Assembly (NCBI RefSeq): GCF_030973515.1
Contig: NZ_JARGZA010000002.1
Coordinates: forward strand, 1-64,000
Reading direction: 5' to 3'
Length of the DNA: 64,000 bases
Source: Jannaschia maritima
GTDB lineage: Bacteria > Pseudomonadota > Alphaproteobacteria > Rhodobacterales > Rhodobacteraceae
Positions 19,921 through 23,548 of this stretch are shown piece after piece. The position numbers and the translations under genes are program-made. Positions within the stretch are counted from its first letter, which is position 1. Each line of letters opens with the position of its first letter. The notes under the pieces were generated by a model that was given only the letters and a program-made list of their open reading frames with translations, made no database searches and had not been told where the DNA came from.

Positions 19921-22281
19921 CTAGTCCAGAGCGTCCTGGACCCGGGCGGTGAGGTCGCGCAGCGAGAAGGGCTTGGGCAGGAACACGGAGTTGGGGATGG
20001 GCACGTTCGTTTCGGACATCGTGTCCTGCGTATAGCCCGACACGAAGATCGTGGTGATGTGCGGACGGTCCACCAGCGCCTGCCGCACCCAGGTGGGTCC
20101 GTCCATCCCGGGCATCATCACGTCGGTGACGAACAGGTCCACGTGCAGGTCGGGATCGGACAGGATCTCCAACGCGTCCTCGGCCGACGGGGCCTCGATC
20201 ACGTCGTAGCCCTTCAGCGTCAGCGCGCGGGAGGCGAAGGCGCGGACCGGATCCTCGTCCTCCACCAGCAGGATGGTCCCCTTGTTCCCGCCGGAGCCGG
20301 CCGCCGGCGGATGTGGCAGGGCGATCTGCGCGGGCTCCGCCGAGACGTCCGCCGGGGGCGCTTCGGAACGCGACCCGGCCGCCGGCGGGTGCGCCGAGAC
20401 CAGCGGCATCATGTCGGTGCCAGCGGGGAAGTAGAGGGTGAAGACCGCGCCTTCGTCGGAGCTGTCGGCGAAGATGAACCCGCCCGACTGCTTGACGATC
20501 CCGTAGGCCATGGACAGCCCCAGGCCCGTCCCCTCCCCCGGCCGCTTGGTGGTGAAGAACGGCTCGAAGATGCGGGCGATCTTGTCGCGGGGGATGCCGG
20601 TGCCCTGGTCGCTGACGCGGATCCGGACGTACTGGCCCGGGGGCACGGTGGCGCGGTCTCGGACCATCTCCTCCGCGAGGTAGGTGCAGCGCGTCTCGAT
20701 GCGCACCTCGCCGCCGCCGGGCATCGCGTCGCGGGCGTTGACGACCAGGTTCATCAGCACCTGCTCCAACTGCCGCCGGTCGCCGCGGATGGGGATCAGC
20801 GCGGGGTCGTGATCGACCACGAGGCGAACGCGCTCGCCCACCAGGCGGTTCAGCAGGTGGGTCATGTCGCCCAGGGTTTCGCGCAGGTCGAGCTGCTGCA
20901 TGTTCAGGTTCTGCTTGCGCGAGAAGGCCAGCAGGCGTTCGACGAGGTCGGCGCCGCGGGCGGCGTTCTGCTGGATCTGCTTGAGGTCCGCGTAGTCCGG
21001 ATCGTCCTGGGGCTGGCGTTGCATGACCAGTTCGCAATGCCCCGATATGGCTTGCAGGAGGTTGTTGAAGTCGTGCGCCACGCCGCCCGCCAGCTGGCCG
21101 ATGGCCTGCATCTTCTGGGACTGCACGAACTGCGCCTCGATCGACTTGTATTCCGTGGCGTCGTTCATCACGGCGACCAGCGTGCCGTCGTTACCTTCGG
21201 ACGGGCGGCCCAGCGTGACCTGCAGGTACGTCTCGCCCGCGCCGGTGACGCGCACCACCTCCGGCCGGCCGAGACCGCGGCCCTCCCGCGCTTCCTGGAC
21301 CCAGGCGCCCACGGACCGCCCGAGGCTTTCGACCAAGGCGGCGAGGGGCTTGTCGCCGTTGCGGGCCTCCGGCAGCAGGCGCGCGGCCGGGGCGTTGAGG
21401 GGCGAGACCAGCCCGTCCGCGTCGATCTTCAGGACGGCGATGGGCAGGGTCGCCACGGATGGGGGCGCGTCGCCCGCCCCGCCGTCAGCCGACAGGGGCA
21501 GGACCGACACCTCGCGCCGACCGTCCGCTGTGGGGACGATGCCCAGGCGCACGGAACGCGGACCCTTCGCCGCGTTCAGCCGGTACACGCCGTCGTGGTC
21601 CGGCCGGTCCACGTCGAACAGGTCGGACAACTCGTTGACCGGACGCCCCAGCAGCGTGCGCAGGCTGTCGTTGACGTGGAGGATCGCGCCGTCGGGGGCG
21701 ACGGACAGCATCGGGGTCGCCGGGTTCCCCAGGCTGGTGCCGTCGAGCAGATCCTCCAGCCGCCAGATCTGTCCGCCCGGAATGCGATGGGCCGACAGGC
21801 GGACATGGCCGCGCCGCGTGCGCACGTCCTCCACCGCCGTACCCCCCGCCTCCAGCTTGCGGCGCAATCGGACGGCCAACTGGCGGGGATTGGCGAGGAT
21901 CGGTTCCAGCACGCGGGTCAGGTCGTCGCCGCCGCGGGGGCCGAAGCGGTCGCGGGCGGCACGGTTGCGGGCCGTGATCGCGCCGGTCCGATCCAGGCAG
22001 AACGCGGGCGCGGCGTCGTCCTCGAGCAGACGCATGGCGCGCGCGCGGTTCCGCCTTTCGCGCCAGGAGGCGAGCCGCACGGCCATGAGGGTGAGAAGCG
22101 CCACGACGGCGAGGCAGGCCGCCACGGCCGCCAGCGTCAGGCGAAGCGCGGGCTGGGCGAACGCCACCGCCGCGGCGCCGGCGAGAAGCGCGGCCGCCGC
22201 CAAGGTCACCGCGCGGGGCAGCCAGCGCCCGGTCCCCGCGGGCATGTCCGCGGCCGCACCACTCCAACCCGTGTCCGCCAT
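19921..22281 (-). CDS. cckA: Hybrid sensor histidine kinase CckA
   Basis: A 786-residue inner-membrane hybrid kinase. Two N-terminal transmembrane helices (about 23-42 and 48-69) are followed by PAS-like sensory modules (about 85-375), a HisKA domain with His403 in [11 protein letters not shown], an ATPase domain with [13 protein letters not shown] and [12 protein letters not shown], and a C-terminal receiver with Asp720 in [10 protein letters not shown] and the CckA-typical [12 protein letters not shown] ending. In alphaproteobacteria CckA feeds phosphate through ChpT to CtrA and CpdR. Its position beside recA and alaS is also typical of Rhodobacterales. A perfect CtrA box lies 55 bases upstream, so it may be under feedback control by its own output. 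Confidence 0.92.
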
Positions 22282-22335
22282 GTCCTCTCTCTCCCCCGGA
22301 TCCGATCGCCTCGCGCGGTGATAGGCGGCGTGGTC

Positions 22336-22351
22336 TTAACCGATGATTAAC
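22336..22351. promoter_or_regulatory. CtrA-binding box upstream of cckA
   Basis: TTAACCGATGATTAAC matches the full CtrA consensus TTAA-N7-TTAAC with no mismatch. It lies in the 94-base gap between the methyltransferase gene and cckA, 54 bases before the cckA ATG. A/T-rich octamers of this form are rare in such GC-rich DNA. Confidence 0.75.
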
Positions 22352-22375
22352 GATGATGGCGTCGCCGCGCCGGGG

Positions 22376-23548
22376 TCAAGCGTCCGTGCGCGGCCCCAGC
22401 TGCGTCATGTGGAAGCCGTCGGTGCCATCCAGCGGCGTCAGGGTGACGGCGCCGGTCGCCCGGCGTCCGAGCCGCCCCACGGCCCCGGCGGCGACCCCGT
22501 TCTCGGCGGTGAAGAGCGAGCATGTCATATAGGCGATCGCGCCCCGCGGACCGGCGAGGGCGTCGGCGCGGTCCAGGATCGCCGCCTGCGTCGCCATCAG
22601 GGCGTCCAACGCATCGGGCGTCAGGCGCCACTTGGCCTCCGGCGCGCGGCGCCACGACCCGGAGCCGGAGCATGGCACGTCGCAGACGACCAGGTCGAAG
22701 GGCCCGCGCGGATCCAGTTCCACGGCGATCGGGGCACGGGCGCGGCGGGCGCGTTCGGGCAGGTCGCGCATCCGCGCGGGGTCCGCGTCGTGGGCGGTCA
22801 CGTGCAGGTCCGAGCGCGCCGCCATGGCCAAGGCCTTGCCCCCTCCCCCGGCGCAAAGGTCCAGCACCCGCATCCCGTCGACCAGGGGGAGGGCTTCGAC
22901 CAGGGCCTGCGAGCCCGCGTCCTGGAATTCGAACAGGCCGTCCCGGAACAGGGCGTGGGCCTGCAGGCCACGGGGGGCGCCGCGCACCTCCACCGCCGTC
23001 GATGCCGCGGGGTGGGGATGCGCGTCGTAGCCATCGTCCCGCAGGGCGGCGACGACCCCGTCCCGGTCCGTGCGCGCGGCGTTTGCGCGCAGGTGGACGG
23101 GCGCGCGGTCCCGCAGCGCGAGGCAGACGGCGTCCGCTCGGGGGCCCAGGGCCGCGTCGAACAGCCGTAGGGTCCAGTCGGGGACGTCCAGTCGGACCGC
23201 GCGGGGCGGCGCCGCGGCCGGAGTGTCCGGTCCGTCCCAGCGCGCGGGGCCGTGACGCGACCCGTCGAACAGGGCGTCCGCGTCGGCCCCCTGCCCCACG
23301 AGCAGGCCGCGCATCACCGCGCGCGCCTCCATCGCGACCGGGTCCGCGTCGCCCAGGCCCCCCGCCCAGGCGGCGGAGCGCAGCCGGCGCAGGGCGTCGA
23401 AGACGTGGTCGCGCACGGCGGCGCGGTCGCCCGAGCCCGCGAAGCGCGAGGCCCGCGCCCACCGGGTCAGCGCACGTTCCGCCGCCTCGCCGCGCAGGAC
23501 GGGGCCCAAGATCTCGATGGCGGCCTGGACGCGGGCGGCGGGGGTCAC
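22376..23548 (-). CDS. RsmB/NOP-family RNA m5C methyltransferase
   Basis: A 390-residue S-adenosylmethionine-dependent RNA cytosine-5 methyltransferase. A helical N-terminal domain (about 1-120) precedes a Rossmann domain with VLDLCAGGGGKALAMA (SAM binding), DVPCSGSGSWRRAPEAKW (motif IV with one catalytic cysteine) and YMTCSLFTAENG (motif VI with the nucleophilic cysteine). The target is most likely 16S rRNA by family, but it could be another RNA. The start is a GTG. The stop lies 94 bases before cckA; the CBS-domain gene is 16 bases upstream, so they are probably co-transcribed. Confidence 0.88.
   Translation of the reverse strand: MTPAARVQAAIEILGPVLRGEAAERALTRWARASRFAGSGDRAAVRDHVFDALRRLRSAAWAGGLGDADPVAMEARAVMRGLLVGQGADADALFDGSRHGPARWDGPDTPAAAPPRAVRLDVPDWTLRLFDAALGPRADAVCLALRDRAPVHLRANAARTDRDGVVAALRDDGYDAHPHPAASTAVEVRGAPRGLQAHALFRDGLFEFQDAGSQALVEALPLVDGMRVLDLCAGGGGKALAMAARSDLHVTAHDADPARMRDLPERARRARAPIAVELDPRGPFDLVVCDVPCSGSGSWRRAPEAKWRLTPDALDALMATQAAILDRADALAGPRGAIAYMTCSLFTAENGVAAGAVGRLGRRATGAVTLTPLDGTDGFHMTQLGPRTDA

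Follow-up and report, generated by a model that had tools for sequence, protein, structure and literature searches.

In 2010, Brilli et al. proposed for cluster B Rhodobacterales that both cckA and divL are under CtrA control, a theoretical feedback derived from a matrix search of the genomes then available (PMC2877005). In Dinoroseobacter shibae a CtrA site was found in the cckA promoter, cckA was lower in a ctrA mutant in the stationary but not in the exponential phase, and deletion of cckA left ctrA unchanged (Wang et al. 2014, PMC4046655). The CtrA-cckA loop was later described for this system by Koppenhoefer et al. (2019, PMC6473078) and repeated in PMC7232146. In Ruegeria sp. KLH11 a full CtrA site lies 62 bp before the cckA start, although an added ctrA plasmid was reported to leave a cckA-lacZ fusion unaltered; the same paper states that in R. 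capsulatus without ctrA the transcription of cckA was unaffected while the CckA protein fell (Zan et al. 2013, PMC3692519). CckA of R. capsulatus was reported to be both a kinase and a phosphatase (PMC8116508), and its gene to be under the control of LexA (cited in PMC6473078); there too the relay is regulated at cckA, its entry point, with a different regulator. Regulation of cckA by CtrA had thus been predicted for Rhodobacterales before. No family-wide survey of the CtrA site before cckA was noticed among the papers that literature searches on CtrA and cckA listed, and what is new here is its genus-by-genus conservation and the finding that the box is more complete at cckA than at ctrA.

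The DNA analysed here (the window) is a stretch of 64,000 nucleotides of Jannaschia maritima, in which the following features frame the candidate CtrA site:

19921 to 22281, minus strand: cckA, hybrid histidine kinase of 786 aa, from the list of open reading frames (ORFs) and domain, NCBIfam, PDB and orthologue matches.
22336 to 22350, minus strand: full CtrA-type box TTAA-N7-TTAA in the cckA orientation (TTAATCATCGGTTAA), from pattern match and conservation.
22376 to 23548, minus strand: rsmB-like 16S rRNA methyltransferase gene upstream of cckA, from the ORF list and a family match.

Read on the plus strand, the box corresponds to TTAACCGATGATTAAC at positions 22336-22351, with 54 bases (22282-22335) between it and the cckA ATG. 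The preliminary description of this DNA had claimed a perfect CtrA box at this place and at this distance from cckA, and both points were confirmed. In the 64 kb, with both strands searched, it is the sole exact match to TTAAC-N6-TTAAC and also the sole exact match to TTAA-N7-TTAA, and neither pattern appeared in 100 dinucleotide shuffles. The window holds 8 TTAA words. On the cckA strand the box reads GTTAA-TCATCGG-TTAAG; the consensus TTAA-N7-TTAAC ends in a C that is present only in the plus-strand reading. Since the rsmB-like gene and cckA are both on the minus strand, separated by a gap of 94 bases, cckA is the only listed gene preceded by the box. The arrangement resembles the one predicted by Brilli et al., with a CtrA site before cckA and the same feedback idea, the difference being that no gene-by-gene promoter architecture and no genus-wide counts were noticed in the account of their matrix search (PMC2877005). 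It also resembles D. shibae in another genus, where a CtrA site was predicted and the loop proposed (PMC4046655, PMC6473078), and Ruegeria sp. KLH11, in which the full site stands 62 bp from the cckA start against 54 here (PMC3692519).

The product of cckA carries PAS, HisKA and HATPase domains and, at its C-terminus, a receiver domain. The two NCBIfam models that score best are CckA models (Brucella and Caulobacter); the 475 and 404 bits fall far under the cut-offs of 1000, and only the protein from residue 280 onward is matched. Among the PDB matches is a CckA chain, and in 20/20 genomes of the genus the best match was at orthologue level. A scan of genome contigs yielded 1 close relative in 80 loci. 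The genome also encodes CtrA (414 bits against a family cut-off of 350) and a ChpT-family protein (70 bits against 22.9).

The absence of the motif in close relatives, which had been named beforehand as an observation that would speak against the proposal, was looked for. A perfect TTAA-N7-TTAA was found before cckA in all 20 Jannaschia genomes, the genome of the window included, and the rest of these 20 loci (92,486 bases) contained 1 other perfect box. Across the family Rhodobacteraceae, with one genome per genus, the perfect box precedes cckA in 102 of 135 readable genera and is missing from the other 33, counts that are not independent because the genera share ancestry. This total was built from a first scan (perfect box in 96/129 genera, single-mismatch box in 21 more), from the re-anchoring of loci with divergent N-termini, which added 2 perfect boxes, and from 8 further fetched loci, 6 of them with upstream sequence and 4 of these 6 with a perfect box. 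The regions came from 148 other family genomes, 129 in the first scan and 6 later; two genomes were left out for having too little upstream sequence (G047, G141), two because the match lay at a contig end (G025, G166) and nine because they had no CckA orthologue (G027, G033, G048, G052, G078, G109, G121, G128, G155). The perfect boxes of loci L229, L238, L254, L365, L366 and L368 hinge on uncertain start codons, L368 being in addition a gene with an in-frame stop. An order-level search yielded 24 further genomes, all of the same family, and 23 of them carried a perfect box between -150 and +30.

In the nine genomes left out for want of a CckA orthologue, the CckA match was at paralogue level only and CtrA was under the cut-off, which probably reflects a joint loss of CckA and CtrA in nine of the 148; two of the nine are less than 85% complete. 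In another genome, the CtrA match (G107:C1:675149-675694) stops at residue 182 of 224 in an open frame of 205 aa, and the cckA locus of the same genus (L195) has a one-mismatch box, a single case that perhaps represents decay of the relay.

The conservation extends to the spacing of the two words. When the -150 to +30 region of 129 family loci was examined for TTAA pairs, a spacer of 7 was found in 94, and no other length between 0 and 16 occurred in more than 2; over 200 mononucleotide shuffles the mean was 0.13 and the largest value 2. The spacer bases themselves vary across genera, the TTAA words and the distance between them staying constant, and elsewhere in 29 family loci there were 0 perfect boxes in 146,510 bases. 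The idea that the box arose by chance has nothing to recommend it beyond the shortness of the motif, and it was rejected on the empty shuffles, the conservation in 20/20 congeners and in the family, the fixed spacer and the scarcity of boxes elsewhere in the loci: the box is not a chance occurrence, a reading to which we attach practically no weight. Judged by these comparisons, the box is under selection, and so is the long-predicted link between CtrA and cckA. With a conserved CtrA-type site before cckA in most relatives, CtrA, the target of the kinase, probably controls the kinase gene.

The same spacing bears on which protein uses the motif. Another regulator, for example another OmpR-type or a Crp/Fnr protein, could be considered since the genome has further OmpR-type regulators and since in one D. 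shibae promoter a Crp/Fnr site is reported to share a half-site with CtrA (PMC7232146). The conserved spacer of 7 is, however, that of the full CtrA site and not the N4 reported for the Dnr/Fnr site of D. shibae (PMC7232146), so that a Crp/Fnr site was rejected and use by any other regulator seems very improbable. The family regions were also searched for the LexA direct-repeat words, GAAC-N7-GAAC and GTTC-N7-GTTC. Each was found in 0/129, and a LexA site as in R. capsulatus was likewise rejected.

Outside the family a perfect copy stood near the ORF opening in 3/28 loci, 2 of these 3 in stretches of 35-37% G+C. These 28 loci were read from 56 genomes of other families that were searched, and the scan took 250 bases on either side of ORF openings whose true starts are uncertain, so the clade carrying the box is bounded loosely. 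In Caulobacter, no perfect box was present in the 2 loci examined.

With regard to promoter architecture, the closest measured counterparts are the CtrA-activated fla2 promoters of R. sphaeroides, whose transcription starts were reported 23-24 nt after the box, with A at -11 throughout and G at -4 (PMC6180460). Placing the cckA box on this scale gives two more features:

22318 to 22323, minus strand: -10-like TATCAC, whose A at 22322 would be at -11 if transcription starts at 22311, predicted from the A-rich positions of the family and the measured R. sphaeroides promoters.
22311, minus strand: putative start of transcription at an A, 24 nt downstream of the box, placed by the R. sphaeroides promoter spacing.

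With this start the leader would be 30 nt long. In 94 aligned family promoters, T reaches frequencies of 0.59 and 0.76 at positions 18-19 from the box start, and A reaches 0.52, 0.63 and 0.79 at positions 28-30. The position of this A-rich block matches an invariant A at -11 combined with a box-to-start distance of 23-24 nt, as in R. sphaeroides. Most congeners have GATA as their -10-like element, placed 1-2 bases closer to the box than the family block is. The base at -4 is C in the window, differing from the R. sphaeroides G, and no strong G at -4 was seen in the family promoters either; this base does not define CtrA promoters in general. Box, TATCAC and purine start would fit the spacing of the R. 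sphaeroides CtrA-activated promoters, save for the G at -4. What the cckA promoter would have in common with the fla2 promoters is a box near -35, a start 23-24 nt downstream and the A at -11; it differs in that those promoters serve flagellar genes and have measured starts, the start here being a predicted one (PMC6180460). A scan of positions 22200-22480 for plain sigma-70 promoters and terminator-like sites, covering the intergenic gap upstream of cckA, found neither; the missing sigma-70 promoter agrees with an activator-dependent promoter and proves nothing.

Taken together, the data favour, with a probability of roughly 0.7, the reading that CtrA does bind the box, which together with the downstream -10-like TATCAC forms a CtrA-activated cckA promoter. 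What speaks for it in the sequence is the box, its conservation and constant spacer, an A-rich -10 region that keeps its distance and the encoded CtrA and ChpT-type protein; binding, activation rather than repression, the start site and read-through from rsmB we infer. The lower cckA of the D. shibae ctrA mutant in stationary phase and the genes found beside other perfect boxes of the genome also count in favour. Against it weigh the C at -4, the closer GATA of the congeners, the 33 genera lacking a perfect box and the published null results: extra CtrA in Ruegeria, ctrA loss in R. capsulatus, and in D. shibae the exponential phase and the cckA deletion. The opposite sign of regulation, in which CtrA would repress cckA through the box and create a transcriptional negative feedback, has some precedent, as CtrA is stated to act also as a repressor in Caulobacter (PMC6180460) and a negative loop through Osp is reported to exist in R. 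sphaeroides. It is nevertheless quite unlikely: the sites through which CtrA represses reportedly overlap the -10 region (PMC6180460), whereas the box here would lie over the -35 region by the predicted start, and cckA in the D. shibae ctrA mutant falls and does not rise (PMC4046655).

If activation is the correct reading, CtrA in its phosphorylated form would occupy the -35 region and assist RNA polymerase, so that more cckA would be transcribed than the basal amount that read-through from rsmB may already provide. The rsmB-like C-terminal motif was found just upstream of cckA in 108/114 family loci, the test relying on a short C-terminal motif with a stop codon after it and hence being a weak proxy for the gene. 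We infer from the order rsmB-cckA that basal read-through could take place, and such read-through could in turn explain why published effects are weak or confined to a growth phase. The same observations lend something to a reading in which CtrA binds the box and contributes little, the cckA transcript arising mainly by rsmB read-through and the CtrA promoter mattering only in some growth phases. This would agree with the frequent rsmB-like motif, with the lack of a terminator-like site in the gap and with the published results, namely the null result with extra CtrA in Ruegeria, the unchanged cckA transcription in R. capsulatus and the unaffected exponential phase in D. shibae. On the other hand, the strong conservation of both TTAA words and of their spacer implies a selected role, and a contribution that is small under most conditions is considered unlikely. 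As for the feedback loop suggested in the preliminary description, a candidate CtrA site kept in relatives and placed at an activation-type spacing is upheld, but on a working loop the published tests in relatives disagree.

Even with CtrA-activated transcription of cckA, the sign of the whole loop would not be fixed, because CckA acts both as kinase and as phosphatase and more of it could raise or lower the level of CtrA~P. If CtrA does set the amount of its own kinase across Rhodobacteraceae, the relay would tune itself at its entry point, and this would bear on the question why swimming and the production of gene transfer agents are confined to part of a population.

The promoter of ctrA itself was examined for comparison. 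In the genome of the window, ctrA has a one-mismatch box 69 bases upstream together with half-sites. Among the 30 best-scoring of 137 genomes over the CtrA cut-off, the ctrA promoter had a perfect box in 1/30 and a one-mismatch box in 29/30, against 27 of the same 30 genomes with a perfect box before cckA. These ctrA boxes (L275, L334-L363) lie mostly 65-90 bases ahead of the start, and the half-site TTAACCAT accompanies them in 11/30. A tentative extension of this comparison, more doubtful than the promoter reading itself, is that the best-formed self-regulatory site of the family relay sits on the kinase gene and not on ctrA. CtrA would then set the dose of CckA atop the rsmB read-through, and whether a cell locks into or out of the CtrA-on state, with its motility, quorum sensing and gene transfer agents, would depend on CckA being in its kinase or its phosphatase state.

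Beyond cckA, the whole genome (3.67 Mb) contains 20 perfect TTAA-N7-TTAA places, against 2 for a control pattern read backwards. Perfect boxes adjoin genes for a sigma-70-family factor, which we read as RpoH-like, a flagellin, and GGDEF, FtsW-type, OmpR-type and RecQ-like helicase proteins (L263, L270, L261, L265, L267 and L258, respectively; ten box-adjacent proteins were scanned, one of them without a family). CtrA sites were reported for the flagellar genes, luxR2 and rpoH1 of D. shibae (PMC4046655). On contig C41 of the same genome (L271, near 214481), a perfect box precedes a luxR-type gene, with a luxI-type autoinducer synthase gene next in line, as with the CtrA site reported at luxR2I2 of D. 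shibae (PMC4046655).
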